From Saccoglossus kowalevskii (Eukaryota > Hemichordata > Enteropneusta > Harrimaniidae): a stretch of DNA of 33,028 nucleotides. The DNA is taken from positions 1 through 33,028 of the forward strand of contig NW_003112357.1 in NCBI RefSeq assembly GCF_000003605.2, written 5' to 3'. Position numbers and translations under genes: made by a program. Of the stretch, positions 1-33,028 are shown piece after piece. Position 1 is the stretch's first letter; the number at the start of each line of letters is the position of its first letter. Below the pieces are notes generated by a model, which was not told the DNA's origin, did no database searches, and saw nothing but the letters and a program-made list of their open reading frames with translations.

Positions 1-159
1 TGCGAGCACTTCGTTATGCGTCCTTGAATTAGTTAGAATATAACTGAGAACTTCATATTATTTTCAAAAGGCTACAAAAAAACCATCGAAATGCACAGAC
101 GATTGTGCGATTGCAAGTCTTTTAAAAACACGATTAGCGCAAATACAGTATGTTGATGT
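1..159 (+). repeat. Linker module at left edge (5' flank of first tRNA)
   Basis: This is the common upstream linker, entered just inside its first bases. It contains the near-palindrome at about 100-115 in a form with two weak positions, the TTTTAAAAA box at 120-128, and the usual lead-in ending GATGT before the tRNA. No gene is seen in it. Confidence 0.9.
120..128 (+). promoter_or_regulatory. TATA-like AT box upstream of tRNA (representative)
   Basis: TTTTAAAAA lies 40 to 32 nt before the tRNA start and is kept at this distance in nearly every unit, half units included. If Pol III starts a few bases before the mature 5' end, the box sits near -30, where some animal tRNA genes use an upstream TATA-like element that helps TFIIIB binding. 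Its position is seen; its function is inferred. Confidence 0.4.
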
Positions 160-233
160 GGCCGGTTAGCTCAGTTGGTTAGAGCGCGGTGCTAATAACG
201 CTGAGGTCGTGGGTTCGATCCCCGTATCGGCCA
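160..233 (+). tRNA. tRNA-Ile(AAU), copy 1
   Basis: All stems form. The copy differs from the array consensus only at A64 to G in the T stem, which leaves a U50-G64 wobble pair. The linker that follows carries the extra 154-bp module. Confidence 0.85.
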
Positions 234-240
234 TTGGTAA

Positions 241-244
241 TTTT
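241..244 (+). terminator. Pol III TTTT terminator (representative)
   Basis: A run of four T begins 8 nt after the discriminator base, inside a conserved GTAATTTTATG context. The same run follows almost every full copy at the same distance (for example 1558-1561 after the copy at 1477). Four T on the non-template strand is the minimal animal Pol III stop. Confidence 0.75.
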
Positions 245-279
245 ATGTGTATGTTGAAAACTATTGGCGGCATTTGGGT

Positions 280-293
280 GCGCCATCTTGTGG
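280..293 (-). promoter_or_regulatory. CTCF/YY1-like 14-mer (representative)
   Basis: Read on the - strand, the site is CCACAAGATGGCGC. It matches 13 of 14 positions of the CTCF core consensus CCASYAGRKGGCRS (the miss is position 5), and its AAGATGGCG part matches the YY1/Pho core. It lies about 47 nt past the tRNA 3' end. I count about 46 exact copies and about 22 with one substitution (GATGACGC). Half-tRNA units and the roughly 196-bp units lack it. Binding is not shown by sequence alone. Confidence 0.4.
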
Positions 294-326
294 CTACCTT
301 CACTATCACCGTCTGGTGGGTAATAT

Positions 327-480
327 AATTTGTATTCTGCGAGCACTTCGTTATGCGTCCTTGAATTAGTTAGAATATAACTGAGAACTTCATATTATTG
401 GTAAAAGGCTACAAAAAAACCTTCGAAATGCACAGACGTTTGTGCGATTGCATGTCTTTTAAAAACACGATTAACGATAG
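327..480 (+). repeat. Extra tRNA-less linker module, 154 bp (representative)
   Basis: This copy starts AATTTGTATTCTG and runs to ATTAACGATAG, where the same AATTTGTATTCTG starts again at 481. It equals the normal upstream linker minus the last lead-in before a tRNA. Wherever it is inserted the unit grows by 154 bp, so 336 becomes about 490 and 148 becomes 302. It contains the near-palindrome and AT box but no A or B box, so it is not expected to be transcribed by Pol III alone. Confidence 0.85.
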
Positions 481-650
481 AATTTGTATTCTGTGAGCAC
501 TTCGTTATGCGTCCTTGAATTAGTTAGAATATAACTGAGAACTTCATATTATTTTCAAAAGGCTACAAAAAAACCATCGAAATGCACAGACGATTGTGCG
601 ATTGCAAGTCTTTTAAAAACACGATTAGCGCAAATACAGTATGCTGATGT

Positions 651-724
651 GGCCGGTTAGCTCAGTTGGTTAGAGCGCGGTGCTAATAACGCTGAGGTCG
701 TGGGTTCGATCGCCATATCGGCCA
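651..724 (+). pseudogene. tRNA-Ile(AAU)-like, copy 2 (T-stem mismatch)
   Basis: The copy is full length, but C61 is G, which breaks the near-invariant G53-C61 pair and weakens the B box. The rest matches consensus. Confidence 0.75.
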
Positions 725-987
725 TTGGTAATTTTATGTGTATGTTGAAAACTATTGGCGGCATTTGGGTGCGCCATCTTGTGGCTACCTTCACTATCAC
801 CGTCTGGTGGGTAATATAATTTGTATTCTGCGAGCACTTCGTTATGCGTCCTTGAATTAGTTAGATTATAACTGAGAACTTCGTATTATTGGCAAAAGGC
901 TACAAAAAAACCTTCTAAATGCACAGACGTTTGTGCGATTGCATGTCTTTTAAAAACACGATTAACGCAAATACAGAGTGCTTATGT

Positions 988-1061
988 GGACGGTTAGCTC
1001 AGTTGGTTAGAGCGCGGTGCTAATAACGCTGAGGTCGTGGGTTCGATCCCCATATCGGCCA
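988..1061 (+). pseudogene. tRNA-Ile(AAU)-like, copy 3 (A3 allele)
   Basis: C3 is A, giving an A3-G70 mismatch in the acceptor stem; all else is consensus. The upstream linker has the variant lead-in GAGTGCTTATGT. The same allele recurs at 1813 and 2638, so it spread with the 825-bp repeat. Confidence 0.75.
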
Positions 1062-1476
1062 TTGGTAATTTTATGTGTATGTTGAAAACTATTGGCGGCA
1101 TTTGGTGCGCCATCTTGTGGCTACCTTCACTATCACCGTCTGGTGGGTAATAGAATTTGTATTCTGCGAGCACTTCGTTATGCCTCCTTGAATTTGTTAG
1201 AATATAACTGAGAACTTCATATTATTGGCAAAAGGCTACCCAAAATCCTTCGAAATGCACAGACGTTTGTGCGATTGCATGTCTTTTAAAACACGATTAA
1301 CGATAAAATTTGTATTCTGCGAGCACTTCGTTATGCGTCCTTGAATTAGTTAGAATATAACTGAGAACTTCATATTATTTTCAAAAGGCTACAAAAAAAC
1401 CTTCGAAATGCACAGGCGTTTGTGCGATTGCATGTCTTTTAAAAACACGATTAACGCAAATACAGTATGCTGATGT

Positions 1477-1550
1477 GGCCGGTTAGCTCAGTTGGTTAGA
1501 GCGCGGTGCTAATAACGCTGAGGTCGTGGGTTCGATCCCCATATCGGCCA
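1477..1550 (+). tRNA. tRNA-Ile(AAU), copy 4, array consensus
   Basis: This is the reference copy. The acceptor stem GGCCGGT pairs with ATCGGCC (one G-U), followed by discriminator A. The D stem is GCTC/GAGC with GG at 18-19. The anticodon stem CGGTG/CGCTG frames the seven-base loop CTAATAA, whose anticodon AAT reads Ile AUU, AUC and, as IAU, AUA. The variable loop is AGGTC. The T arm is GTGGG-TTCGATC-CCCAT. The A box TAGCTCAGTTGG and B box GGTTCGATCC match Pol III consensus, no intron or CCA is encoded, and TTTT follows at 1558. Eleven other copies (5465, 6686, 8020, 9876, 11371, 15664, 16187, 23459, 25544, 26367, 30895) are identical. Charging and use in translation are likely for this family but unproven here; homogenisation alone could also keep copies identical. 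Confidence 0.9.
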
Positions 1551-1812
1551 TTGGTAATTTTATGTGTATGTTGAAACTATTGGCGGCATTTGGGTGCGCC
1601 ATCTTGTGGCTACCTTCACTATCACCGTCTGGTGGGTAATATAATTTGTATTCTGCGAGCACTTCGTTATGCGTCCTTGAATTAGTTAGATTATAACTGA
1701 GAACTTCGTATTATTGGCAAAAGGCTACAAAAAAACCTTCTAAATGCACAGACGTTTGTGCGATTGCATGTCTTTTAAAAACACGATTAACGCAAATACA
1801 GAGTGCTTATGT

Positions 1813-5343: not shown

Positions 5344-5413
5344 TTGGTAATTTTATGTGTATGTTAAAAACTATTGGCGGCATCCGAGTGTGCCATCTTC
5401 TGGCTACCTTCAC

Positions 5414-5538: not shown

Positions 5539-5549
5539 TTGGTAATTTT

Positions 5550-5583
5550 ATGTGTATGTTAAAAACATGTGTATGTTAAAAAC
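5550..5583 (+). repeat. 17-bp direct duplication after tRNA
   Basis: ATGTGTATGTTAAAAAC occurs twice in a row just past the TTTT terminator. The same duplication is present at 6771-6804 in the second 1221-bp copy but not after the tRNA at 9049, which helps order the events. Confidence 0.85.
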
Positions 5584-6759: not shown

Positions 6760-7039
6760 TTGGTAATTTTATGTGTATGTTAAAAACATGTGTATGTTAA
6801 AAACTATTGGCGGCATCCGAGTGCGCCATCTTGTGGCTACCTTCACTATCACCGTCTGGTGGGTAATAGAATTTGTATTCTGCGAGCACTTCGTTATGCG
6901 TCCTTGAATTAGTTAGAATATAACTGAGAACTTCATATTATTTTCAAAAGGCTACAAAAAAATCTTCGAAATGCACAGACGTTTGTGCGAGTGCATGTCT
7001 TTTAAAAACACGATTAACACAAATACAGTATGCTGATGT

Positions 7040-8845: not shown

Positions 8846-8910
8846 GGCCGGTTAGCTCAGTTGGTTAGAGCGCGGTGCTAATAACGCTGAGGTCGTGGGT
8901 TCGATCACCA
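8846..8910 (+). pseudogene. tRNA-Ile(AAU)-like, copy 23 (3' end replaced)
   Basis: The tRNA is normal up to GATCACCA (A61 allele). Then the whole 3' acceptor strand is replaced by repeats of TGTGTA, so no acceptor stem can form. The A box is intact and the B box has the A61 change. Confidence 0.85.
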
Positions 8911-8930
8911 TGTGTATGTGTATGTGTATG
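8911..8930 (+). repeat. Short TGTGTA repeat replacing a tRNA 3' end
   Basis: About three copies of TGTGTA sit between the T arm and the usual GTAATTTTATGTGTATG. The unit motif equals the TGTGTATG just downstream, so slippage or template switching from that site explains it. Confidence 0.8.
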
Positions 8931-9048
8931 GTAATTTTATGTGTATGTTAAAAACTATTGGCGGCATCCGAGTGTGCCATCTTGTGGCTACCTTCACAAT
9001 TGCATGTCTTTTAAAAACACGATTAACGCAAATACAGTATGCTGATGT

Positions 9049-12188: not shown

Positions 12189-12262
12189 GGCCGGTTAGCT
12201 CAGTTGGTTAGAGCGAGGTGCTAATAACGCTGAGGTCGTGGGTTCGATCCACATATCGGTCA
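12189..12262 (+). pseudogene. tRNA-Ile(AAU)-like, copy 32
   Basis: C27 is A, C62 is A and C71 is T, giving anticodon-stem and T-stem mismatches. The upstream palindrome is in the GGACAGACG form. Confidence 0.72.
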
Positions 12263-12514
12263 TTGGTAATTTTATGTGTATGTTGAAAACTATTGGCGGC
12301 ATTCGGGTGCGTCATCTTGTGGCTACCTTCACTATCACCGTCAGAATTTGTATTCTGTGAGCACTTTATAATGCGTCCTTGAATTAGTTAGAATATAACT
12401 GAGAACTTCATATTATTGGCAAAAGGCTGCAAAAAAACCTTCGAAATGGACAGACGTTTGTGCGATTGCATGTCTTTTTAAAACACGATTAACGCAACTA
12501 CAGTATGCTAATGT

Positions 12515-13152: not shown

Positions 13153-13226
13153 AGCCGGTTAGCTCAGTTGGTTAGAGCGCGGTGCTAATAACGCTGAGGT
13201 CGTGGGTTCGATCACCATATCGGCCA
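13153..13226 (+). pseudogene. tRNA-Ile(AAU)-like, copy 35 (A1, A61)
   Basis: A1-C72 and G53-A61 mismatches are present. The downstream linker is the short form that joins GTTGAAAA to TTGAGAGCTACAAAA, so the next tRNA starts 196 bp on. Confidence 0.72.
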
Positions 13227-13348
13227 TTGGTAATTTTATGTGTATGTTGAAAATTGAGAGCTACAAAAAAACCTTCGAAATGCACAGACGTTTGTGCGAT
13301 TGCATATCTTTTAAAAACACGATTAACGCAAATACAGTATGCTGATGT
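13227..13348 (+). repeat. Short linker of the 196-bp unit (representative)
   Basis: After the TTTT run, GTATGTTGAAAA joins TTGAGAGCTACAAAA directly, removing the CTCF-like site and the AATTTGTATTCTG to TATTATTGGC part. The same junction is seen after the tRNAs at 13349, 15664, 21774, 22936 and 26703. No gene is seen in it. Confidence 0.85.
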
Positions 13349-13422
13349 AGCCGGTTAGCTCAGTTGGTTAGAGCGCGGTGCTAATAACGCTGAGGTCGTG
13401 GGTTCGATCCCCATATCGGCCA
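13349..13422 (+). pseudogene. tRNA-Ile(AAU)-like, copy 36 (A1)
   Basis: Its only lesion is G1 to A (A1-C72), which may affect 5' processing. It opens the first 2306-bp higher-order repeat. Confidence 0.68.
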
Positions 13423-13544
13423 TTGGTAATTTTATGTGTATGTTGAAAATTGAGAGCTACAAAAAAACGTTCGAAATGCACAGACGTTTGTGCGATTGCA
13501 TGTCTTTTAAAAAAACGATTAACGCAAATACAGTATGCTGATGT

Positions 13545-13618
13545 AGCCGGTTAGCTCAGTTGGTTAGAGCGCGGTGCTAATAACGCTGAGGTCGTGGGTT
13601 CGATCCACGTATCGATCA
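13545..13618 (+). pseudogene. tRNA-Ile(AAU)-like, copy 37 (heavily altered 3' side)
   Basis: The 3' side reads CACGT-ATCGATC: C62 is A, G70 is A and C71 is T, on top of A1. Acceptor and T stems are both weakened. The same allele occurs at 15860 and 23132. Confidence 0.75.
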
Positions 13619-13871
13619 TTTGTAATTTTATGTGTATGTTGAAAACTATTGGCGGCATTCGGGTGCGTCATCTTGTGGCTACCTTCACTATCACCGCCAG
13701 AATTTGTATTCTGTGAGCAACTTTATAATGCGTCCTTGAATTAGTTAGAATATAACTGAGAACTTCATATTATTGGCAAAAGGCTGCAAAAAAACCTTCG
13801 AAATGGACAGACGTTTGTGCGATTGCATGTCTTTTAAAAACACGATTAACGCAAATACAGTATTCTGATGT

Positions 13872-13954
13872 GGCCGGTTAGCTCAGTTGGTTAGAGCGCG
13901 GTGCTAATAACGCTAATAACGCTGAGGTCGTGGGTTCGATCCCCATATCGGCCA
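13872..13954 (+). pseudogene. tRNA-Ile-like, copy 38 (anticodon loop duplicated)
   Basis: The 9 bases GCTAATAAC are repeated in tandem, so the element is 83 nt and carries the AAT triplet twice. Outside the insert it is consensus. The partner copies at 16187 and 23459 lack the insert, so it arose after the higher-order repeat was duplicated. Confidence 0.85.
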
Positions 13955-14216
13955 TTGCTAATTTTATGTGTATGTTGAAAACTATTGGCGGCATTTGGTG
14001 CGCCATCTTGTGGCTACCTTCACTGTAACCGTCTTGTGGGTAATAGAATTTGTATTCTGCGAGCACTTCGTTATGCGTCCTTGAATTAGTTAGAATATAA
14101 CTGAGAACTTCATATTATTTTCAAAAGGCTATAAAAAAACCTTCGAAATGCACAGACGTTTGTGCGATTGCATGTCTTTTAAAAACACGATTAACGCAAA
14201 TACAGTATGCTGATGT

Positions 14217-14256
14217 AGCCGGTTAGCTCAGTTGGTTAGAGCGCGGTGTTAATAAC
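14217..14256 (+). pseudogene. 5' half tRNA-Ile, 40 nt (A1)
   Basis: It has the half-tRNA junction with G1 changed to A, and is followed by the extra 154-bp module to give a 302-bp unit. Confidence 0.85.
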
Positions 14257-14518
14257 TTCATATTATTGGCAAAAGGCTACAAAAAAACCTTCGAAATGCA
14301 CAGACGTTTGTGCGATTGCATGTCTTTTAAAAACACGATTAACGATAGAATTTGTATTCTGTGAGCACTTCGTTATGCGTCCTTGAATTAGTTAGAATAT
14401 AACTGAGAACTGTATATTATTTTCAAAAGGCTACAAGAAAACCATCGAAAAGCACAGACGTTTGTGCGATTGCATATCTTTTAAAAACACGATTAACGCA
14501 AATACAGTATGCTGATGT

Positions 14519-14591
14519 GGCCGGTTAGCTCAGTTGGTTAGAGCGCGGTGCTAATAACGTTGAGGTCGTGGTTCGATCCCCATATCGGCCA
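14519..14591 (+). pseudogene. tRNA-Ile(AAU)-like, copy 40 (T-stem deletion)
   Basis: One G is lost from the T stem (GTCGTGGTTCG), and C41 to T gives a wobble pair. The allele is shared with 16825 and 24097. Confidence 0.75.
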
Positions 14592-14854
14592 TTGGTAATT
14601 TTATGTGTATGTTGAAAACTATTGGCGGCATTTGGGTGCGCCATCTTGTGGCTACCTTCACTATCACCGTCTGGTGGGTAATATAATTTGTATTCTGCGA
14701 GCACTTCGTTATGCGTCCTTGAATTAGTTAGAATATAACTGAGAACTTCATATTATTTTCAAAAGGCTATAAAAAAACCTTCGAAATGCACAGACGTTTG
14801 TGCGATTGCATGTCTTTTAAAAAAACGATTAACGCAAATACAGTATGCTGATGT

Positions 14855-14928
14855 AGCCGGTTAGCTCAGTTGGTTAGAGCGCGGTGCTAATAACGCTGAG
14901 GTCGTGGGTTCGATCCACATATCGGTCA
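14855..14928 (+). pseudogene. tRNA-Ile(AAU)-like, copy 41 (A1/A62/T71)
   Basis: It has the same triple allele as 11862. The CTCF-like site downstream is the substituted form and the terminator is kept. Confidence 0.75.
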
Positions 14929-15179
14929 TTTGTAATTTTATGTGTATGTTGAAAACTATTGGCGGCATTCGGGTGCGTCATCTTGTGGCTACCTTCACTA
15001 TCACCGTCAAAATTTGTATTCTGTGAGCACTTTATAATGCGTCCTTGAATTAGTTAGAATATAACTGAGAACTTCATATTATTGGCAAAAGGCTGCAAAA
15101 AAACCTTGAAATGGACAGACGTTTGTGCGATTGCATGTCTTTTTAAAACACGATTAACGCAAATACAGTATGCTAATGT

Positions 15180-15253
15180 GGCCGGTTAGCTCAGTTGGTT
15201 AGAGAGCGGTGCTAATAACGCTGAGGTCGTGGGTTCGATCCCCATATCGGCCA
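15180..15253 (+). pseudogene. tRNA-Ile(AAU)-like, copy 42 (A25)
   Basis: It has the G10-A25 mismatch in the D stem; the B box and all other stems are normal. Confidence 0.72.
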
Positions 15254-15515
15254 TTGCTAATTTTATGTGTATGTTGAAAACTATTGGCGGCATTTGGTGC
15301 GCCATCTTGTGGCTACCTTCACTATAACCGTCTTGTGGGTAATAGAATTTGTATTCTGCGAGCACTTCGTTATGCGTCCTTGAATTAGTTAGAATATAAC
15401 TGAGAACTTCATATTATTTTCAAAAGGCTACAAAAAAACCTTCGAAATGCACAGACGTTTGTGCGATTGCATGTCTTTTAAAAACACGATTAACGCAAAT
15501 ACAGTATGCTGATGT

Positions 15516-15555
15516 GGCCGGTTAGCTCAGTTGGTTAGAGCGCGGTGTTAATAAC
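15516..15555 (+). pseudogene. 5' half tRNA-Ile, 40 nt
   Basis: This half copy is followed by linker subtype alpha (CTATAAAAAAACC, perfect palindrome). The next element, at 15664, is full length. Confidence 0.85.
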
Positions 15556-15596
15556 TTCATATTATTGGCAAAAGGCTATAAAAAAACCTTTGAAAT

Positions 15597-15612
15597 GCAC
15601 AAACGTTTGTGC
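15597..15612. repeat. 16-bp perfect palindrome (linker subtype alpha)
   Basis: GCACAAACGTTTGTGC equals its own reverse complement, centred on ACGT. Other alpha linkers carry it too (for example 17903-17918), while the common form GCACAGACGTTTGTGC has one weak position. It resembles a symmetric protein-binding site; no binder is known to me. Confidence 0.8.
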
Positions 15613-15663
15613 GATTGCATGTCTTTTAAAAACACGATTAACGCAAATACAGTATGCTGATGT

Positions 15664-15737
15664 GGCCGGTTAGCTCAGTTGGTTAGAGCGCGGTGCTAAT
15701 AACGCTGAGGTCGTGGGTTCGATCCCCATATCGGCCA
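15664..15737 (+). tRNA. tRNA-Ile(AAU), copy 44, consensus
   Basis: The body is exact consensus with G1, unlike its repeat partners at 13349 and 22936, which have A1. The short 196-bp linker follows. Confidence 0.88.
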
Positions 15738-15859
15738 TTGGTAATTTTATGTGTATGTTGAAAATTGAGAGCTACAAAAAAACGTTCGAAATGCACAGAC
15801 GTTTGTGCGATTGCATGTCTTTTAAAAAAACGATTAACGCAAATACAGTATGCTGATGT

Positions 15860-15933
15860 AGCCGGTTAGCTCAGTTGGTTAGAGCGCGGTGCTAATAACG
15901 CTGAGGTCGTGGGTTCGATCCACGTATCGATCA
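15860..15933 (+). pseudogene. tRNA-Ile(AAU)-like, copy 45 (altered 3' side)
   Basis: It has the A1 plus CACGT-ATCGATC allele, as at 13545. Confidence 0.75.
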
Positions 15934-16186
15934 TTTGTAATTTTATGTGTATGTTGAAAACTATTGGCGGCATTCGGGTGCGTCATCTTGTGGCTACCTT
16001 CACTATCACCGTCAGAATTTGTATTCTGTGAGCAACTTTATAATGCGTCCTTGAATTAGTTAGAATATAACTGAGAACTTCATATTATTGGCAAAAGGCT
16101 GCAAAAAAACCTTCGAAATGGACAGACGTTTGTGCGATTGCATGTCTTTTAAAAACACGATTAACGCAAATACAGTATTCTGATGT

Positions 16187-16260
16187 GGCCGGTTAGCTCA
16201 GTTGGTTAGAGCGCGGTGCTAATAACGCTGAGGTCGTGGGTTCGATCCCCATATCGGCCA
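16187..16260 (+). tRNA. tRNA-Ile(AAU), copy 46, consensus
   Basis: The body is exact consensus. The terminator context is GCTAATTTTATG and the lead-in is ACAGTATTCTGATGT. Confidence 0.88.
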
Positions 16261-16522
16261 TTGCTAATTTTATGTGTATGTTGAAAACTATTGGCGGCAT
16301 TTGGTGCGCCATCTTGTGGCTACCTTCACTGTAACCGTCTTGTGGGTAATAGAATTTGTATTCTGCGAGCACTTCGTTATGCGTCCTTGAATTAGTTAGA
16401 ATATAACTGAGAACTTCATATTATTTTCAAAAGGCTATAAAAAAACCTTCGAAATGCACAGACGTTTGTGCGATTGCATGTCTTTTAAAAACACGATTAA
16501 CGCAAATACAGTATGCTGATGT

Positions 16523-16562: not shown

Positions 16563-16824
16563 TTCATATTATTGGCAAAAGGCTACAAAAAAACCTTCGA
16601 AATGCACAGACGTTTGTGCGATTGCATGTCTTTTAAAAACACGATTAACGATAGAATTTGTATTCTGTGAGCACTTCGTTATGCGTCCTTGAATTAGTTA
16701 GAATATAACTGAGAACTGTATATTATTTTCAAAAGGCTACAAGAAAACCATCGAAAAGCACAGACGTTTGTGCGATTGCATATCTTTTAAAAACACGATT
16801 AACGCAAATACAGTATGCTGATGT

Positions 16825-16897
16825 GGCCGGTTAGCTCAGTTGGTTAGAGCGCGGTGCTAATAACGTTGAGGTCGTGGTTCGATCCCCATATCGGCCA
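16825..16897 (+). pseudogene. tRNA-Ile(AAU)-like, copy 48 (T-stem deletion)
   Basis: This is the 73-nt allele with one G missing from the T stem, identical in body to 14519. Confidence 0.75.
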
Positions 16898-17160
16898 TTG
16901 GTAATTTTATGTGTATGTTGAAAACTATTGGCGGCATTTGGGTGCGCCATCTTGTGGCTACCTTCACTATCACCGTCTGGTGGGTAATATAATTTGTATT
17001 CTGCGAGCACTTCGTTATGCGTCCTTGAATTAGTTAGAATATAACTGAGAACTTCATATTATTTTCAAAAGGCTATAAAAAAACCTTCGAAATGCACAGA
17101 CGTTTGTGCGATTGCATGTCTTTTAAAAAAACGATTAACGCAAATACAGTATGCTGATGT

Positions 17161-17234
17161 AGCCGGTTAGCTCAGTTGGTTAGAGCGCGGTGCTAATAAC
17201 GCTGAGGTCGTGGGTTCGATCCACATATCGGTCA
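17161..17234 (+). pseudogene. tRNA-Ile(AAU)-like, copy 49 (A1/A62/T71)
   Basis: It has the triple allele, as in the partner at 14855. Confidence 0.75.
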
Positions 17235-17485
17235 TTTGTAATTTTATGTGTATGTTGAAAACTATTGGCGGCATTCGGGTGCGTCATCTTGTGGCTACCT
17301 TCACTATCACCGTCAAAATTTGTATTCTGTGAGCACTTTATAATGCGTCCTTGAATTAGTTAGAATATAACTGAGAACTTCATATTATTGGCAAAAGGCT
17401 GCAAAAAAACCTTGAAATGGACAGACGTTTGTGCGATTGCATGTCTTTTTAAAACACGATTAACGCAAATACAGTATGTTAATGT

Positions 17486-17559
17486 GGCCGGTTAGCTCAG
17501 TTGGTTAGAGAGCGGTGCTAATAACCCTGAGGTCGTGGGTTCGATCCCCATATCGGCCA
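17486..17559 (+). pseudogene. tRNA-Ile(AAU)-like, copy 50 (A25, C40)
   Basis: The A25 allele carries a private G40 to C change in the anticodon stem (AACCCTGAG), a T30-C40 mismatch absent from 15180 and 24758. Confidence 0.75.
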
Positions 17560-17821
17560 TTGCTAATTTTATGTGTATGTTGAAAACTATTGGCGGCATT
17601 TGGTGCGCCATCTTGTGGCTACCTTCACTATAACCGTCTTGTGGGTAATAGAATTTGTATTCTGCGAGCACTTCGTTATGCGTCCTTGAATTAGTTAGAA
17701 TATAACTGAGAACTTCATATTATTTTCAAAAGGCTACAAAAAAACCTTCGAAATGCACAGACGTTTGTGCGATTGCATGTCTTTTAAAAACACGATTAAC
17801 GCAAATACAGTATGCTGATGT

Positions 17822-17861
17822 GGCCGGTTAGCTCAGTTGGTTAGAGCGCGGTGTTAATAAC
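17822..17861 (+). pseudogene. 5' half tRNA-Ile, 40 nt
   Basis: This is the first element of an uninterrupted 148-bp array; an alpha linker follows. Confidence 0.88.
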
Positions 17862-17969
17862 TTCATATTATTGGCAAAAGGCTATAAAAAAACCTTTGAA
17901 ATGCACAAACGTTTGTGCGATTGCATGTCTTTTAAAAACACGATTAACGCAAATACAGTATGCTGATGT

Positions 17970-18009
17970 GGCCGGTTAGCTCAGTTGGTTAGAGCGCGGT
18001 GTTAATAAC
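17970..18009 (+). pseudogene. 5' half tRNA-Ile, 40 nt
   Basis: A beta linker follows, carrying a private CACAGAAGT change in the palindrome and GCATGTGTTTT for GCATGTCTTTT. Confidence 0.85.
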
Positions 18010-18117
18010 TTCATATTATTGGCAAAAGGCTACAAAAAAACCTTCGAAATGCACAGAAGTTTGTGCGATTGCATGTGTTTTAAAAACACGATTAACGCAA
18101 ATACAGTATGCTGATGT

Positions 18118-18157
18118 GGCCGGTTAGCTCAGTTGGTTAGAGCGCGGTGTTAATAAC
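18118..18157 (+). pseudogene. 5' half tRNA-Ile, 40 nt
   Basis: An alpha linker of the AAAAGCTAT subtype follows, with a private AAAAATACC change. Confidence 0.85.
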
Positions 18158-18265
18158 TTCATATTATTGGCAAAAAGCTATAAAAATACCTTTGAAATGC
18201 ACAAACGTTTGTGCGATTGCATGTCTTTTAAAAACACGATTAACGCAAATACAGTATGCTGATGT

Positions 18266-18305
18266 GGCCGGTTAGCTCAGTTGGTTAGAGCGCGGTGTTA
18301 ATAAC
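18266..18305 (+). pseudogene. 5' half tRNA-Ile, 40 nt
   Basis: The linker after it is mixed: alpha CTATAAAA at the start and beta CACAGACG in the palindrome, which suggests an exchange or conversion tract end within the unit. Confidence 0.85.
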
Positions 18306-18413
18306 TTCATATTATTGGCAAAAGGCTATAAAAAAACCTTCGAAATGCACAGACGTTTGTGCGATTGCATGTCTTTTAAAAACACGATTAACGCAAATAC
18401 AGTATGCTGATGT

Positions 18414-18453
18414 GGCCGGTTAGCTCAGTTGGTTAGAGCGCGGTGTTAATAAC
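18414..18453 (+). pseudogene. 5' half tRNA-Ile, 40 nt
   Basis: This is the last of the five-unit run; a beta linker and the extra 154-bp module lead to a full copy. Confidence 0.85.
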
Positions 18454-18715
18454 TTCATATTATTGGCAAAAGGCTACAAAAAAACCTTCGAAATGCACAG
18501 ACGTTTGTGCGATTGCATGTCTTTTAAAAACACGATTAACGATAGAATTTGTATTCTGTGAGCACTTCGTTATGCGTCCTTGAATTAGTTAGAATATAAC
18601 TGAGAACTTCATATTATTTTCAAAAGGCTACAAGAAAACCATCGAAAAGCACAGACGTTTGTGCGATTGCATATCTTTTAAAAACACGATTAACGCAAAT
18701 ACAGTATGCTGATGT

Positions 18716-20866: not shown

Positions 20867-20906
20867 GGCCGGTTAGCTCAGTTGGTTAGAGCGCGGTGTT
20901 AATAAC
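20867..20906 (+). pseudogene. 5' half tRNA-Ile, 40 nt
   Basis: This is the first element of a four-unit half cassette; an alpha linker follows. Confidence 0.87.
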
Positions 20907-21014
20907 TTCATATTATTGGCAAAAGGCTATAAAAAAACCTTTGAAATGCACAAACGTTTGTGCGATTGCATGTCTTTTAAAAACACGATTAACGCAAATA
21001 CAGTATGCTGATGT

Positions 21015-21054
21015 GGCCGGTTAGCTCAGTTGGTTAGAGCGCGGTGTTAATAAC
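21015..21054 (+). pseudogene. 5' half tRNA-Ile, 40 nt
   Basis: Second unit of the cassette; a beta linker follows. Confidence 0.86.
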
Positions 21055-21162
21055 TTCATATTATTGGCAAAAGGCTACAAAAAAACCTTCGAAATGCACA
21101 GACGTTTGTGCGATTGCATGTCTTTTAAAAACACGATTAACGCAAATACAGTATGCTGATGT

Positions 21163-21202
21163 GGCCGGTTAGCTCAGTTGGTTAGAGCGCGGTGTTAATA
21201 AC
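21163..21202 (+). pseudogene. 5' half tRNA-Ile, 40 nt
   Basis: Third unit of the cassette; an alpha linker of the AAAAGCTAT subtype follows, with the perfect palindrome. Confidence 0.86.
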
Positions 21203-21310
21203 TTCATATTATTGGCAAAAAGCTATAAAAAAACCTTTGAAATGCACAAACGTTTGTGCGATTGCATGTCTTTTAAAAACACGATTAACGCAAATACAGT
21301 ATGCTGATGT

Positions 21311-21350
21311 GGCCGGTTAGCTCAGTTGGTTAGAGCGCGGTGTTAATAAC
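21311..21350 (+). pseudogene. 5' half tRNA-Ile, 40 nt
   Basis: Fourth unit of the cassette; its beta linker leads into the armless element at 21459. Confidence 0.86.
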
Positions 21351-21458
21351 TTCATATTATTGGCAAAAGGCTACAAAAAAACCTTCGAAATGCACAGACG
21401 TTTGTGCGATTGCATGTCTTTTAAAAACACGATTAACGCAAATACAGTATGCTGATGT

Positions 21459-21509
21459 GGCCGGTTAGCTCAGTTGGTTAGAGCGCGGGTTCGATCCCCA
21501 TATCGGCCA
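21459..21509 (+). pseudogene. 51-nt tRNA-Ile lacking the anticodon arm
   Basis: The sequence goes from GAGCGCGG straight to GTTCGATCC, removing 23 nt: the anticodon arm, the variable loop and part of the T stem. Acceptor stem, D arm, T loop and both Pol III boxes remain, with GCGGG as a partial substitute T-stem strand. It cannot decode. The box spacing is shorter than normal, which may or may not permit TFIIIC binding. A second copy is at 28155. Confidence 0.87.
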
Positions 21510-21773
21510 TTGGTAATTTTATGTGTAAGTTGAAAACTATTGGCAGCATTTGGTGCGCCATCTTGTGGCTACCTTTCACTATCACCGTCTGGTGGGCAAA
21601 TAGAATTTGTATTCTGCGAGCACTTCGTTATGCGTCCTTGAATTAGTTAGAATATAACTGAGAACTTCATATTATTTTCAAAAGGCTACAAAATAACCTT
21701 CGAAATGCACAGACGTTTGTGCGATTGCATGTCTTTTAAAAACACGATTAACGCAAATACAGTATGCTGATGT

Positions 21774-22673: not shown

Positions 22674-22935
22674 TTCATATTATTGGCAAAAGGCTACAAA
22701 AAAACCTTCGAAATGCACAGACGTTTGTGCGATTGCATGTCTTTTAAAAACACGATTAACGATAGAATTTGTATTCTGTGAGCACTTTGTTATGCGTCCT
22801 TGAATTAGTTAGAATATAACTGAGAACTTCATATTATTTTCAAAAGGCTACAAGAAAACCATCGAAAAGCACAGACGTTTGTGCGATTGCATATCTTTTA
22901 AAAACACGATTAACGCAAATACAGTATGCTGATGT

Positions 22936-23009
22936 AGCCGGTTAGCTCAGTTGGTTAGAGCGCGGTGCTAATAACGCTGAGGTCGTGGGTTCGATCCCCA
23001 TATCGGCCA
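22936..23009 (+). pseudogene. tRNA-Ile(AAU)-like, copy 71 (A1)
   Basis: Only A1-C72 departs from consensus. It opens the third 2306-bp repeat and is followed by the short linker. Confidence 0.68.
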
Positions 23010-23131
23010 TTGGTAATTTTATGTGTATGTTGAAAATTGAGAGCTACAAAAAAACCTTCGAAATGCACAGACGTTTGTGCGATTGCATGTCTTTTAAAAA
23101 AACGATTAACGCAAATACAGTATGCTGATGT

Positions 23132-23205
23132 AGCCGGTTAGCTCAGTTGGTTAGAGCGTGGTGCTAATAACGCTGAGGTCGTGGGTTCGATCCACGTATC
23201 GATCA
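23132..23205 (+). pseudogene. tRNA-Ile(AAU)-like, copy 72 (altered 3' side)
   Basis: It has the A1 plus CACGT-ATCGATC allele, with a further C27 to T change. Confidence 0.75.
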
Positions 23206-23458
23206 TTTGTAATTTTATGTGTATGTTGAAAACTATTGGCGGCATTCGGGTGCGTCATCTTGTGGCTACCTTGACTATCACCGTCAGAATTTGTATTCTG
23301 TGAGCAACTTTATAATGCGTCCTTGAATTAGTTAGAATATAACTGAGAACTTCATATTATTGGCAAAAGGCTGCAAAAAAACCTTCGAAATGGACAGACG
23401 TTTGTGCGATTGCATGTCTTTTAAAAACACGATTAACGCAAATACAGTATTCTGATGT

Positions 23459-23532
23459 GGCCGGTTAGCTCAGTTGGTTAGAGCGCGGTGCTAATAACGC
23501 TGAGGTCGTGGGTTCGATCCCCATATCGGCCA
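23459..23532 (+). tRNA. tRNA-Ile(AAU), copy 73, consensus
   Basis: The body is exact consensus; it is the partner of 16187, without the 9-bp insert seen at 13872. Confidence 0.88.
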
Positions 23533-23794
23533 TTGCTAATTTTATGTGTATGTTGAAAACTATTGGCGGCATTTGGTGCGCCATCTTGTGGCTACCTTCA
23601 CTGTAACCGTCTTGTGGGTAATAGAATTTGTATTCTGCGAGCACTTCGTTATGCGTCCTTGAATTAGTTAGAATATAACTGAGAACTTCATATTATTTTC
23701 AAAAGGCTATAAAAAAACCTTCGAAATGCACAGACGTTTGTGCGATTGCATGTCTTTTAAAAACACGATTAACGCAAATACAGTATGCTGATGT

Positions 23795-23834
23795 AGCCGG
23801 TTAGCTCAGTTGGTTAGAGCGCGGTGTTAATAAC
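23795..23834 (+). pseudogene. 5' half tRNA-Ile, 40 nt (A1)
   Basis: Partner of 14217 and 16523, with A1 and the extra module after it. Confidence 0.85.
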
Positions 23835-24096
23835 TTCATATTATTGGCAAAAGGCTACAAAAAAACCTTCGAAATGCACAGACGTTTGTGCGATTGCATG
23901 TCTTTTAAAAACACGATTAACGATAGAATTTGTATTCTGTGAGCACTTCGTTATGCGTCCTTGAATTAGTTAGAATATAACTGAGAACTGTATATTATTT
24001 TCAAAAGGCTACAAGAAAACCATCGAAAAGCACAGACGTTTGTGCGATTGCATATCTTTTAAAAACACGATTAACGCAAATACAGTATGCTGATGT

Positions 24097-24169
24097 GGCC
24101 GGTTAGCTCAGTTGGTTAGAGCGCGGTGCTAATAACGTTGAGGTCGTGGTTCGATCCCCATATCGGCCA
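24097..24169 (+). pseudogene. tRNA-Ile(AAU)-like, copy 75 (T-stem deletion)
   Basis: It carries the 73-nt allele, identical in body to 14519 and 16825. Confidence 0.75.
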
Positions 24170-24432
24170 TTGGTAATTTTATGTGTATGTTGAAAACTAT
24201 TGGCGGCATTTGGGTGCGCCATCTTGTGGCTACCTTCACTATCACCGTCTGGTGGGTAATATAATTTGTTTTCAGCGAGCACTTCGTTATGCGTCCTTGA
24301 ATTAGTTAGAATATAACTGAGAACTTCATATTATTTTCAAAAGGCTATAAAAAAAACTTCGAAATGCACAGACGTTTGTGCGATTGCATGTCTTTTAAAA
24401 AAACGATTAACGCAAATACAGTATGCTGATGT

Positions 24433-24506
24433 AGCCGGTTAGCTCAGTTGGTTAGAGCGCGGTGCTAATAACGCTGAGGTCGTGGGTTCGATCCACATAT
24501 CGGTCA
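24433..24506 (+). pseudogene. tRNA-Ile(AAU)-like, copy 76 (A1/A62/T71)
   Basis: It has the triple allele. The linker before it has private changes (TTGTTTTCAGCGAG). Confidence 0.75.
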
Positions 24507-24757
24507 TTTGTAATTTTATGTGTATGTTGAAAACTATTGGCGGCATTCGGGTGCGTCATCTTGTGGCTACCTTCACTATCACCGTCAAAATTTGTATTCT
24601 GTGAGCACTTTATAATGCGTCCTTGAATTAGTTAGAATATAACTGAGAACTTCATATTATTGGCAAAAGGCTGCAAAAAAACCTTGAAATGGACAGACGT
24701 TTGTGCGATTGCATGTCTTTTTAAAACACGATTAACGCAAATACAGTATGCTAATGT

Positions 24758-24831
24758 GGCCGGTTAGCTCAGTTGGTTAGAGAGAGGTGCTAATAACGCT
24801 GAGGTCGTGGGTTCGATCCCCATATCGGCCA
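24758..24831 (+). pseudogene. tRNA-Ile(AAU)-like, copy 77 (A25, A27)
   Basis: The A25 allele carries an additional C27 to A change, breaking the first anticodon-stem pair. Confidence 0.74.
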
Positions 24832-25093
24832 TTGCTAATTTTATGTGTATGTTGAAAACTATTGGCGGCATTTGGTGCGCCATCTTGTGGCTACCTTCAC
24901 TATAACCGTCTTGTGGGTAATAGAATTTGTATTCTGCGAGCACTTCGTTATGCGTCCTTGAATTAGTTAGAATATAACTGAGAACTTCATATTATTTTCA
25001 AAAGGCTACAAAAAAACCTTCGAAATGCACAGACGTTTGTGCGATTGCATGTCTTTTAAAAACACGATTAACGCAAATACAGTATGCTGATGT

Positions 25094-25133
25094 GGCCGGT
25101 TAGCTCAGTTGGTTAGAGCGCGGTGTTAATAAC
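25094..25133 (+). pseudogene. 5' half tRNA-Ile, 40 nt
   Basis: An alpha linker with the perfect palindrome follows. Partner of 17822. Confidence 0.86.
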
Positions 25134-25241
25134 TTCATATTATTGGCAAAAGGCTATAAAAAAACCTTTGAAATGCACAAACGTTTGTGCGATTGCATGT
25201 CTTTTAAAAACACGATTAACGCAAATACAGTATGCTGATGT

Positions 25242-25281
25242 GGCCGGTTAGCTCAGTTGGTTAGAGCGCGGTGTTAATAAC
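25242..25281 (+). pseudogene. 5' half tRNA-Ile, 40 nt
   Basis: A beta linker and the extra module follow, where the partner at 17970 continues the 148-bp run. Confidence 0.86.
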
Positions 25282-27562: not shown

Positions 27563-27602
27563 GGCCGGTTAGCTCAGTTGGTTAGAGCGCGGTGTTAATA
27601 AC
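27563..27602 (+). pseudogene. 5' half tRNA-Ile, 40 nt
   Basis: First unit of the second four-unit cassette; an alpha linker follows. Confidence 0.86.
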
Positions 27603-27710
27603 TTCATATTATTGGCAAAAGGCTATAAAAAAACCTTTGAAATGCACAAACGTTTGTGCGATTGCATGTCTTTTAAAAACACGATTAACGCAAATACAGT
27701 ATGCTGATGT

Positions 27711-27750
27711 GGCCGGTTAGCTCAGTTGGTTAGAGCGCGGTGTTAATAAC
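27711..27750 (+). pseudogene. 5' half tRNA-Ile, 40 nt
   Basis: Second unit of this cassette; a beta linker follows. Confidence 0.86.
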
Positions 27751-27858
27751 TTCATATTATTGGCAAAAGGCTACAAAAAAACCTTCGAAATGCACAGACG
27801 TTTGTGCGATTGCATGTCTTTTAAAAACACGATTAACGCAAATACAGTATGCTGATGT

Positions 27859-27898
27859 GGCCGGTTAGCTCAGTTGGTTAGAACGCGGTGTTAATAAC
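27859..27898 (+). pseudogene. 5' half tRNA-Ile, 40 nt
   Basis: Third unit of this cassette. It has a private GAACGCGG change, and its alpha linker palindrome is altered to CCCAAACG. Confidence 0.86.
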
Positions 27899-28006
27899 TT
27901 CATATTATTGGCAAAAAGCTATAAAAAAACCTTTGAAATGCCCAAACGTTTGTGCGATTGCATGTCTTTTAAAAACACGATTAACGCAAATACAGTATGC
28001 TGATGT

Positions 28007-28046
28007 GGCCGGTTAGCTCAGTTGGTTAGAGCGCGGTGTTAATAAC
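28007..28046 (+). pseudogene. 5' half tRNA-Ile, 40 nt
   Basis: Fourth unit of this cassette; its beta linker leads to the armless element. Confidence 0.86.
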
Positions 28047-28154
28047 TTCATATTATTGGCAAAAGGCTACAAAAAAACCTTCGAAATGCACAGACGTTTG
28101 TGCGATTGCATGTCTTTTAAAAACACGATTAACGCAAATACAGTATGCTGATGT

Positions 28155-28205
28155 GGCCGGTTAGCTCAGTTGGTTAGAGCGCGGGTTCGATCCCCATATC
28201 GGCCA
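28155..28205 (+). pseudogene. 51-nt tRNA-Ile lacking the anticodon arm, second copy
   Basis: It has the same deletion junction (GCGCGGGTTCGATCC) as 21459, so both come from one event. The linker after it is the GTAAGTTGAAAA/GGCAGCATTTGG variant in both places. Confidence 0.87.
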
Positions 28206-28468
28206 TTGGTAATTTTATGTGTAAGTTGAAAACTATTGGCAGCATTTGGTGCGCCATCTTGTGGCTACCTTCACTATCACCGTCTGGTGGGCAAATAGAA
28301 TTTGTATTCTGCGAGCACTTCGTTATGCGTCCTTGAATTAGTTAGAATATAACTGAGAACTTCATATTATTTTCAAAAGGCTACAAAATAACCTTCGAAA
28401 TGCACAGACGTTTGTGCGATTGCATGTCTTTTAAAAACACGATTAACGCAAATACAGTATTCTGATGT

Positions 28469-28805: not shown

Positions 28806-28845
28806 GGCCGGTTAGCTCAGTTGGTTAGAGCGCGGTGTTAATAAC
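28806..28845 (+). pseudogene. 5' half tRNA-Ile, 40 nt
   Basis: First unit of the third four-unit cassette; an alpha linker follows. Confidence 0.86.
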
Positions 28846-28953
28846 TTCATATTATTGGCAAAAGGCTATAAAAAAACCTTTGAAATGCACAAACGTTTGT
28901 GCGATTGCATGTCTTTTAAAAACACGATTAACGCAAATACAGTATGCTGATGT

Positions 28954-28993
28954 GGCCGGTTAGCTCAGTTGGTTAGAGCGCGGTGTTAATAAC
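28954..28993 (+). pseudogene. 5' half tRNA-Ile, 40 nt
   Basis: Second unit of the third cassette; a beta linker follows. Confidence 0.86.
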
Positions 28994-29101
28994 TTCATAT
29001 TATTGGCAAAAGGCTACAAAAAAACCTTCGAAATGCACAGACGTTTGTGCGATTGCATGTCTTTTAAAAACACGATTAACGCAAATACAGTATGCTGATG
29101 T

Positions 29102-29141
29102 GGCCGGTTAGCTCAGTTGGTTAGAGCGCGGTGTTAATAAC
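29102..29141 (+). pseudogene. 5' half tRNA-Ile, 40 nt
   Basis: Third unit of the third cassette; an AAAAGCTAT-type alpha linker follows, with its palindrome unaltered. Confidence 0.86.
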
Positions 29142-29249
29142 TTCATATTATTGGCAAAAAGCTATAAAAAAACCTTTGAAATGCACAAACGTTTGTGCGA
29201 TTGCATGTCTTTTAAAAACACGATTAACGCAAATACAGTATGCTGATGT

Positions 29250-29289
29250 GGCCGGTTAGCTCAGTTGGTTAGAGCGCGGTGTTAATAAC
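29250..29289 (+). pseudogene. 5' half tRNA-Ile, 40 nt
   Basis: This is the last half copy in the window; only full or truncated elements follow. Confidence 0.86.
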
Positions 29290-29397
29290 TTCATATTATT
29301 GGCAAAAGGCTACAAAAAAACCTTCGAAATGCACAGACGTTTGTGCGATTGCATGTCTTTTAAAAACACGATTAACGCAAATACAGTATGCTGATGT

Positions 29398-30558: not shown

Positions 30559-30632
30559 GGCCGGTTAGCTCAGTTGGTTAGAGCGCGGTGCTAATAACGC
30601 TGAGGTCTTGGGTTCGATCACCATATCGGCCA
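30559..30632 (+). pseudogene. tRNA-Ile(AAU)-like, copy 100 (T49, A61)
   Basis: It combines the T49 allele of 4442 with the A61 allele of 5270, plausibly a recombinant between the two types. Confidence 0.72.
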
Positions 30633-30894
30633 TTTGTAATTTTATGTGTATGTTAAAAACTATTGGGGGCATCCGAGTGCGTCATCTTGTGGCTACCTTC
30701 ACTATCACCGTCTGGTGGGTAATAGAATTTGTATTCTGCGAGCACTTCGTTATGCGTCCTTGAATTAGTTAGAATATAACTGAGAACTTCATATTATTTT
30801 CAAAAGGCTACAAAAAACCTTCGAAATGCACAGACGTTTGTGCGATTGCATGTCTTTTAAAAACACGATTAATGCAAATACAGTATGCTGATGT

Positions 30895-30968
30895 GGCCGG
30901 TTAGCTCAGTTGGTTAGAGCGCGGTGCTAATAACGCTGAGGTCGTGGGTTCGATCCCCATATCGGCCA
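30895..30968 (+). tRNA. tRNA-Ile(AAU), copy 101, consensus
   Basis: The body is exact consensus. Lead-in AATGCAAATACAG is private; the terminator context is TTTGTAATTTTATG. Confidence 0.88.
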
Positions 30969-31385
30969 TTTGTAATTTTATGTGTATGTTAAAAACTATT
31001 GGGGGCATCCGAGTGCGTCATCTTGTGGCTACTTTCACTATCACCGTCTGGTGGGTAATAGAATTTGTATTCTGCGAGCACTTCGTTATGCGTCCTTGAA
31101 TTAGTTAGAATATAACTGAGAACTTCATATTATTGGCAAAAGGCTACCCAAAATCCTTCGAAATGCACAGACGTTTGTGCGATTGCATGTCTTTTATAAA
31201 CACGATTAACGGTAGAATTTGTATTCTGCGAGCACTTCGTTATGCGTCCTTGAATTAGTTAGAATATAACTGAGAAATTCATATTATTTTCAAAAGGCTC
31301 CAAAAAAACCATCGAAATGCACAGACGTTTGTGCGATTGCATGTCTTTTAAAAACACGATTAACGCAAATACAGTATGCTGATGT

Positions 31386-31459
31386 GGCCGGTTAGCTCAG
31401 TTGGTTAGAGCGTGGTGCTAATAACGCTGGCGTCGTGGGTTCGATCCCCATATCGGCCA
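31386..31459 (+). tRNA. tRNA-Ile(AAU), copy 102
   Basis: C27 is T (wobble) and the variable loop reads GCGTC. Stems and boxes are intact. Confidence 0.78.
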
Positions 31460-31876
31460 TTGGTAATTTTATGTGTATGTTGAAAACTATTGGCGGCATT
31501 TGGGTGCGCCATCTTGTGGCTACCTTCACTATCACCGTCTGGTGAGTAATAGAATTTGTATTCTGCGAGCACTTCGTTATGCGTCCTTGAATTAGTTAGA
31601 ATATAACTGAGAACTTCATATTATTTTCAAAAGGCTACAAAAAAACCTTCGAAATGCACAGACGTTTGTGCGATTGCATGTCTTTTAAAAACACGATTAA
31701 CGATAGAATTTGTATTCTGCGAGCACTTCGTTATGCGTCCTTGAATTAGTTGGAATATAACTGAGAACTTCATATTATTTTCAAAAGGCTACAAAAAAAC
31801 CATCGAAATGCACAGACGTTTGTGCGATTGCATGTCTTTTAAAAACACGATTAACGCAAATACAGTATGTTGATGA

Positions 31877-31950
31877 GGCCGGTTAGCTCAGTTGGTTTGA
31901 GCTCGGTGCTAATAACGCTGAGGTCGTGGGTTCGATCACCATATCGGCCA
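31877..31950 (+). pseudogene. tRNA-Ile(AAU)-like, copy 103
   Basis: A21 is T, G26 is T and C61 is A, with an altered lead-in GATGA. An antisense open frame of 70 codons here is a reversed tRNA, not a gene. Confidence 0.74.
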
Positions 31951-32213
31951 TTGGTAATTTTATGTGTATGTTGAAAACTATTGGCGGCATCCGAGTGCGC
32001 CATCTTGTGGCTACCTTCACTATCACCGTCTGGTGGGTAATATAATTTGTATTCTGCGAGCACTTCGTTATGCGTCCTTGAATTAGTTAGAATATAACTG
32101 AGAACTTCATATTATTTTCAAAAGGCTACAAAAAAACCTTCGAAATGCACAGACGTTTGTGCGATTGCATGTCTTTTAAAAAAACGATTAACGCAAATAC
32201 AGTATGCTGATGT

Positions 32214-32261
32214 AGCCGGTTAGCTCAGTTGGTTAGAGCGCGGTGCTAATAATGCTGAGGT
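32214..32261 (+). pseudogene. tRNA-Ile-like, copy 104, 3' truncated
   Basis: The sequence keeps the 5' side through the anticodon arm (A1, T39) and stops at GAGGT, joining GTTTTATGTGTATG. The T arm, B box and 3' acceptor strand are missing, but the TTTT run is now immediately next to it. This deletion differs from the common half-tRNA junction. Confidence 0.85.
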
Positions 32262-32518
32262 GTTTTATGTGTATGTTGAAAACTATTGGCGGCATTTGGG
32301 TGCGCCATCTTGTGGCTACCTTCACTATCACCGTCTGGTGAGTAATAGAATTTGTATTCTGCGAGCACTTCGTTATGCGTCCTTGAATTAGTTAGAATAT
32401 AACTGAGAACTTCATATTATTTTCAAAAGGCTACAAAAAAACCTTCGAAATGCACAGACGTTTGTGCGAGTGCATGTCTTTTAAAAACACGATTAACACA
32501 AATACAGTATGCTGATGT

Positions 32519-32591
32519 GGCCGGTTAGCTCAGTTGGTTAGAGCGCGGTGCTAATAACGCTGAGGTCGTGGGTTCGATCTCCATATCGGCA
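32519..32591 (+). pseudogene. tRNA-Ile(AAU)-like, copy 105 (acceptor deletion allele)
   Basis: It carries the 73-nt ATCGGC-A allele with T61. It and the next start, at 33009, match 10213 and 10703 at an offset of 22306 bp. Confidence 0.78.
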
Positions 32592-33008
32592 TTGGTAATT
32601 TTACGTGTATGTTAAAAACTATTGGGGGCATCCGAGTGCGCCATCTTGTGGCTACCTTCACTATCACCGTCTTGTGGGTAATAGAATTTGTATTCTGCGA
32701 GCACTTCGTTATGCGTCCTTGAATTAGTTAGAATATAACTGAGAACTTCATATTATTGGCAAAAGGCTACCCAAAATCCTTCGAAATGCACAGACGTTTG
32801 TGCGATTGCATGTCTTTTAAAAACACGATTAACGATAGAATTTGTATTCTGTGAGCACTTCGTTATGCGTCCTTGAATTAGTTAGAATATAACTGAGAAC
32901 TTCATATTATTTTCAAAAGGCTACAAAAAAACCATCGAAATGCACAGACGATTGTGCGATTGCATGTCTTTTAAAAACACAATTAGCGCAAATACAGGAT
33001 GCTGATGT

Positions 33009-33028
33009 GGCCGGTTAGCTCAGTTTGA
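33009..33028 (+). pseudogene. tRNA-Ile-like, copy 106, cut by window edge
   Basis: Only the acceptor strand and the start of the D arm are visible. The last bases read CAGTTTGA where CAGTTGGT is expected, so either this copy diverges here or the sequence end is poor. Confidence 0.7.

Follow-up and report, generated by a model that had tools for sequence, protein, structure and literature searches.

Transfer RNA (tRNA) genes can be organized in tandem arrays, as in Xenopus, and satellite DNA of the alpha-satellite type forms higher-order arrays in which blocks of unequal monomers recur, deletions are shared, and unique DNA is lacking. The DNA analyzed here, positions 1 to 33,028 of contig NW_003112357.1 of the hemichordate Saccoglossus kowalevskii (the window, 33,028 nucleotides in length), consists throughout of copies of a tRNA-Ile(AAU) gene with its flanks. 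It resembles arrays of the alpha-satellite type in the recurrence of blocks, while its monomer is a tRNA gene together with flanking DNA. With a probability of about 0.8, we regard the locus as a eukaryotic tRNA-Ile(AAU) gene array that has been turned over in a satellite-like manner by unequal exchange and in which a minority of copies is tRNA-competent. Tandem tRNA arrays are already known, and the present array is a striking member of this established category.

In the passages of the published work that we compared, the tRNA-Ser/Tyr (SYY) cluster of Arabidopsis thaliana, which extends over almost 40 kb and 27 units, is the nearest to the present array in scale and in having pseudogenes, and the two also share tandem tRNA genes and variable flanks (PMC10701932, PMC12308677). 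Of the 54 clustered tRNA-Tyr genes at that locus, 13 are described as sources of tRNA-like RNAs, classes of this sort being labelled pseudogenes (PMC12308677). By comparison, 54 of 74 full-length copies in the present array are defective and a further 30 copies are truncated or rearranged, although the criteria for a defect differ between the two loci. An earlier, sequence-only reading of this DNA had called the presence of perfect copies beside defective ones unusual. This was overstated, as the SYY cluster is of the same kind and it is the excess of defective copies that is larger here; that tandem tRNA clusters are known, as the same reading stated, is borne out by Entamoeba (PMC2652664) and Arabidopsis (PMC10701932, PMC12308677).

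The nearest array in unit is the A. thaliana tRNA-Cys cluster on chromosome 5, which is likewise formed by one isoacceptor, carries one gene per unit of ~420 bp with repeats 84–94% identical, differs in unit number among ecotypes, and shows tRNA variation in regions including stems (PMC10701932). However, that cluster comprises 4–6 units, whereas the present array has 106 tRNA starts, deletion classes, and recurring multi-unit blocks. The arrays of Entamoeba histolytica also consist of tandem tRNA units, for which concerted evolution was considered most likely and unequal sister chromatid exchange possible, but in the passages compared their authors report no clear pseudogene copies, unlike the situation found here (PMC2652664). 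Clusters of fifty members and more are described in Nematostella and teleost fishes; those of Nematostella and zebrafish hold mostly mixed pairs, and their likeness to the present array is one of size (PMC2888827). None of the passages compared describes a single isoacceptor at this scale, satellite-amplified monomers derived by deletion, or a measured lack of tRNA protection. A single-isoacceptor tRNA-Ile array was not found in the open-licence literature among the matches listed for titles and the starts of abstracts.

A single 336-bp unit covers all 33,028 bases. A Viterbi decomposition against this one unit, in which jumps between unit positions were permitted at a cost, gave 959 mismatches, 92 inserted bases, and an identity of 96.8%, a figure that leaves deletions and the 80 larger jumps out of account; no unique DNA was found anywhere in the window. 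Because the window begins at unit position 178 and finishes at unit position 20, both of its ends lie inside the array. The decomposition placed 106 tRNA 5' starts, the last of which (33009–33028) runs off the end of the window. ARAGORN predicted 75 tRNAs, 74 of them Ile(aat) and the other lacking a complete anticodon, while the Rfam family RF00005 gave 76 matches at or above the gathering score, and all of these predictions lay on the + strand. When seven anchor motifs were searched, the tRNA 5' motif had 105 matches and the tRNA 3' motif 74, with zero matches on the - strand of the window for all seven. The locus is thus a tandem array of head-to-tail units with a recognizable tRNA gene in which, as in satellite DNA, a single monomer family runs without interruption over all 33,028 bases. 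The single tRNA species, the single orientation, and the absence of unique DNA claimed by the sequence-only reading are therefore upheld. Its "at least 106 elements" hold as tRNA 5' starts but not as genes, since 74 copies are full-length without internal duplication.

The unit is composed of a tRNA, a trailer, a spacer, and a short leader before the next tRNA (Table 1). All 21 stem pairs of the consensus tRNA are standard, its RF00005 score is 62 bits, and TTTT lies 8 bases downstream of it. The consensus shows the cloverleaf, AAU anticodon, discriminator A, and internal boxes of a cytosolic eukaryotic tRNA-Ile(AAU), and a CCA tail is not encoded. We infer that the tRNA is of eukaryotic origin, and we take the AAU anticodon, boxes A and B, the TTTT, and the missing CCA tail to mark that origin as nuclear. 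Copies identical to the consensus start at 1477 and further at 5465, 6686, 8020, 9876, 11371, 15664, 16187, 23459, 25544, 26367, and 30895. These 12 share the top RF00005 score among the 76 matches and are counted among the 74 full-length copies, from which the copy with a 9-nt internal duplication is excluded. Examples of tRNA variants specific to the array are G1A and C62A.

Among the 106 tRNA starts, 74 copies are full-length, one has the 9-nt duplication, one is cut by the window end, and 30 are truncated or rearranged. The last group comprises 26 half-tRNAs, two copies without positions 29–51, and two others, most of them sitting in runs. All stems are standard without any indel in 21 of the 74 full-length copies, and box B is also kept in 20; at least one of these checks (stems, box B, indel) is failed by the other 54. 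The consensus box B is found in 44/74 full-length copies and the consensus box A in 71/74. Judged by sequence, the 20 copies that pass are predicted to be tRNA-competent and might serve as templates for RNA polymerase III (Pol III). In the 148-bp units the tRNA is reduced to its 5' half, and these units are no longer able to make one.

Each unit class derives from the one 336-bp unit by deletion or duplication, with junctions that recur, and the modular unit lengths reported from the sequence alone are confirmed as 336, 490, 327, 148, 302, and 196 bp with a few rarer ones. If a jump between unit positions is written as 37>226, the 106 units comprise 35 full units (one of which stops after 20 bases where the window ends), 18 that have a second spacer (316>163), 12 with an 11-bp deletion (153>165), 19 of 148 bp (37>226), seven with 37>226 plus the extra spacer, six of 196 bp (106>246), and nine rarer units in six classes. 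The junctions that recur are 37>226 (26 times), 316>163 (25), 153>165 (12), 106>246 (6), and 142>285 (3). The first of these fuses tRNA positions 1–37 to spacer position 226 and gives the 26 half-tRNAs of the window, and none of the 12 units with the 11-bp deletion carries a tRNA that passes all checks. Whole junction strings are exact at 26/26 of the 37>226 and 6/6 of the 106>246 junctions, which suggests a single origin for each. At 316>163 and 153>165 only 15/25 and 8/12 strings are exact and the rest are drifted or unmatched; a single origin is probable for these remaining junctions too.

Whole blocks of units recur as well, as the sequence-only reading had proposed. In a self-BLAST, for which the figures hold among the matches listed, a 2.4-kb block was found three times at ~99% identity. 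The block pairs longer than 900 bp at 99% identity or above were two in number, of 2,444 columns (99.26% and 99.14%), and a block at the left of the window matched one at the right at 95.5% over 2.7 kb. The longest exact repeat in the window measures 1,261 bp, and an eight-unit class string at 15664 is seen again at 22936. The left third holds mainly full and extra-spacer units, the truncated classes occupy the middle (~11.9–29.4 kb), and the right end resumes the class pattern of the left end. When the 64 units of classes F, G, and K were compared by lag (the full, second-spacer, and 11-bp-deletion units, respectively), mean divergence was 0.040, 0.036, 0.035, and 0.038 at lags 2, 4, 6, and 8, and 0.046, 0.046, and 0.043 at lags 1, 3, and 5. 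Homogenized blocks or higher-order repeats, as expected of a satellite, are thus present, and the pattern looks like multi-unit block exchange as in higher-order satellite repeats. The description of the locus as satellite-like also fits the sharing of unit, junctions, and recurring blocks by intact and degraded copies.

The array probably started when a nuclear tRNA-Ile(AAU) gene and ~260 bp of flanking DNA were turned into a 336-bp tandem unit. This unit would then have been multiplied, trimmed, and rearranged as misaligned copies underwent unequal exchange or slippage during replication, and we infer that unequal exchange was the mechanism. A few deletions and a single duplication of the spacer would have arisen, each most probably on one occasion, and would have spread along with the blocks that contained them, the 148-bp half-tRNA units being among the derivatives carried along in this way. 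Multi-unit blocks would have been exchanged regardless of whether the tRNA inside them was intact.

In human tRNA genes, variation in the tRNA body is described as lower by an order of magnitude (PMC8113476). In the present array, tRNA bodies are not conserved relative to spacers, as they would be in a family maintained for dosage. Private variants, defined as those present in a single copy, number 66, of which 20 fall in the 74 sites of the tRNA, 17 in the 88 of the trailer, 21 in the 154 of the spacer, and 8 in the 20 of the leader. A test for fewer private variants in the tRNA than in the spacer gave P = 0.99, and the comparison keeps its direction with alleles in up to two or three copies. 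Substitution-free tRNA copies amount to 0.18 versus 0.21 predicted by random scatter, and pair-breaking changes make up 18 of 38 distinct tRNA substitutions versus 15.4 expected, and are thus not below expectation. Because subfamilies are mixed in the consensus, the shares of perfect copies in three windows (0/67, 0/58, and 0/96) were set aside in favor of haplotype frequencies. The commonest 74-nt haplotype accounted for 12/74 copies of the tRNA, 37/83, 18/96, and 28/122 copies of three spacer windows, and 20/103 copies of a spacer-plus-leader window. As the tRNA is not poorer in private variants than the spacer, selection acting on individual copies is undetectable, and we conclude that it is weak or absent. 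The earlier suggestion that most copies drift in the manner of a satellite agrees with these results.

It is also possible, though unlikely, that selection keeps many copies to raise the supply of tRNA-Ile and that the defective copies are passengers in a dosage array. Such an array could account for the consensus-identical and fully passing fractions of the full-length copies (12/74 and 20/74) and for the TTTT found in all 79 of the 79 trailer starts examined. However, private variants are at least as numerous per site in the tRNA as in the spacer, the 30 truncated or rearranged copies lie mostly in runs, and the number of substitution-free copies matches random scatter.

Several observations weigh against satellite-like turnover with little selection, and the first two below also favor a dosage array. 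The anticodon loop is unchanged in 72/74 full copies. Positions 7–25 of the tRNA (box A and the D arm) are variable at 4/19 sites versus 29/55 elsewhere in the tRNA (Fisher P 0.03, the region having been picked post hoc). Among distinct tRNA substitutions, 10 keep a pair versus 6.2 expected (P 0.057) and 10 fall at unpaired sites versus 16.4 expected (P 0.015), a combination that could reflect constraint on loops or stems that mutate more. In two trailer windows the commonest haplotype is found in 9/67 and 9/58 copies, a uniformity no greater than that of the tRNA. Raw mismatch to the consensus over all units is 0.022 in the tRNA, 0.040 in the trailer, 0.028 in the spacer, and 0.023 in the leader, but these rates are confounded by subfamilies and were not taken as a test of selection. 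Moreover, the tests used would not register selection that acted on the total dose and not on every copy by itself. As for the exchange of blocks, divergence at lag 10 is 0.045 and the dip is absent there, and the nearest relative of a unit lies at a median distance of 8.5 unit steps, so that slippage by one unit is insufficient to explain the pattern.

The tRNA-headed appearance of the unit could, in principle, also arise from a short interspersed nuclear element (SINE), the unit then being a retroposon with a tRNA head that was amplified in tandem, and not a tRNA gene together with flanking DNA. Many copies do show a tRNA head fused to unrelated sequence, and tRNA-like SINEs are described as inflating tRNA counts elsewhere, for example in Schistosoma mansoni (PMC2770079). 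However, the tRNA of the consensus is complete, with its standard stem pairs, high RF00005 score, and nearby TTTT, while an A-rich tail is absent from the consensus unit and, with the window fitted to a single unit, no room remains for target-site duplications; neither a SINE tail nor such duplications were seen within the array by consensus and Viterbi decomposition. We regard this origin as improbable. Slightly less probable still is expansion or scrambling of a shorter or simpler array by the assembler, for although satellite-like arrays are difficult to assemble, false duplication should yield long identical stretches, whereas 66 private variants are present, the pairs above 900 bp at 99% or more are only two among the matches listed, and exact repeats of at most 1,261 bp would be bridged by ordinary long reads.

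Table 1. Positions of the array, its unit, and representative derivative units in the window
Feature	Coordinates	Strand	Basis or remark
Whole tandem array	1..33028	+	Viterbi decomposition; begins at unit position 178, finishes at unit position 20
Full 336-bp unit, class F, representative	1477..1812	+	Consensus and Viterbi decomposition
tRNA-Ile(AAU), 74 nt, unit positions 1–74, identical to array consensus	1477..1550	+	RF00005, 62 bits
Trailer, unit positions 75–162	1551..1638 (approximate)	+	TTTT at unit positions 82–85
Spacer S, unit positions 163–316	1639..1792 (approximate)	+	Viterbi decomposition
20-bp leader before next tRNA, unit positions 317–336	1793..1812	+	Viterbi decomposition
Class G example, 489–492 bp, full unit to 316, then second spacer from 163; 18 units	988..1476	+	Viterbi
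Class K example, 325–327 bp, 11-bp deletion with junction 153 to 165; 12 units	12189..12514	+	Viterbi
Pair of adjacent class R units of 196 bp, joined from 106 to 246; the window has six R units	13153..13544	+	Viterbi
Recurring block	13260..15703	+	Self-BLAST; again at 15575–18009 (99.26%) and 22847–25281 (99.14%)
tRNA with 9-nt duplication in anticodon arm	13872..13954	+	Viterbi and RF00005
Five consecutive half-tRNA units, four of 148 bp, the fifth extending into extra spacer	17822..18541	+	Viterbi
Run of four 148-bp truncated units	20867..21458	+	Similar runs at 27563–28154 and 28806–29397
Unit with tRNA lacking positions 29–51	21459..21773	+	Viterbi; second copy at 28155–28468

An Rfam search with permissive E-values over 1477–2640 (1,164 bases) gave three tRNAs and a mir-1206 match of 18.1 bits, well under its gathering score of 70, and thus no other RNA above threshold in the spacer. 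Single-strand DNA folding of the trailer, spacer, and leader of one unit was ordinary (z 0.48). Copy number peaks at the spacer end (unit positions 285–316), with 131 copies at position 289 versus 106 at the tRNA start and 58 at position 157, and this end is retained by every listed deletion class. A 17-bp exact tandem duplication occurs in the trailer at 5550–5583 and again at 6771–6804, 1.2 kb apart, and the two places have a 657-bp exact repeat in common. An ATGTGT motif is slightly expanded at 8910–8948, adjoining a tRNA without its 3' end. In searches of sequence collections, a 29-base spacer pattern and a 36-base tRNA pattern each had 0 matches in viral contigs, a collection that is uninformative on the host, and a 21-base spacer pattern had 0 matches in genome contigs of a viral or prokaryotic collection that is equally uninformative. 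Five records of a phage collection covered 6–14% of the query at 80–85% identity and were judged to reflect general tRNA similarity.

Private variants are commoner in the leader plus tRNA, with 28 in 94 sites, than over the remaining unit positions, with 38 in 242, a grouping that was picked after the data had been seen. Site permutation gave P 0.0066, and 14/336 rotations of the unit were as high; with alleles in up to two or three copies, the corresponding figures were 17/336 and 11/336 rotations. The excess is weaker for the tRNA alone (67/336 rotations; permutation P 0.065 for singletons). With CpG sites removed, the leader plus tRNA has 24 private variants in 80 sites versus 16 in 138 for the spacer. 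Outside the half-tRNA classes lie 26 of the 28 private variants of the leader plus tRNA, although those other classes hold most of the sites anyway. In human tRNA genes, by comparison, the body is described as protected and an excess of variants is described for the immediate flanks (PMC8113476). The excess found here, a weak signal from a single array, would fit transcription-associated mutation freed from selection. It is conceivable, though doubtful, that the array represents a natural mutation-accumulation experiment, in which redundancy removed selection on single copies and the mutational footprint of transcription became visible in the tRNA body. If this is true, the array is transcribed now or was so formerly.

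The entity propagated at this locus appears to be the repeat and not the gene, as half-genes that are unable to make a tRNA have been amplified beside intact ones. An array of this type leads to inflated counts of tRNA genes. Finally, the array could allow mutation of a Pol III gene to be measured with selection largely absent, unlike in ordinary tRNA genes.

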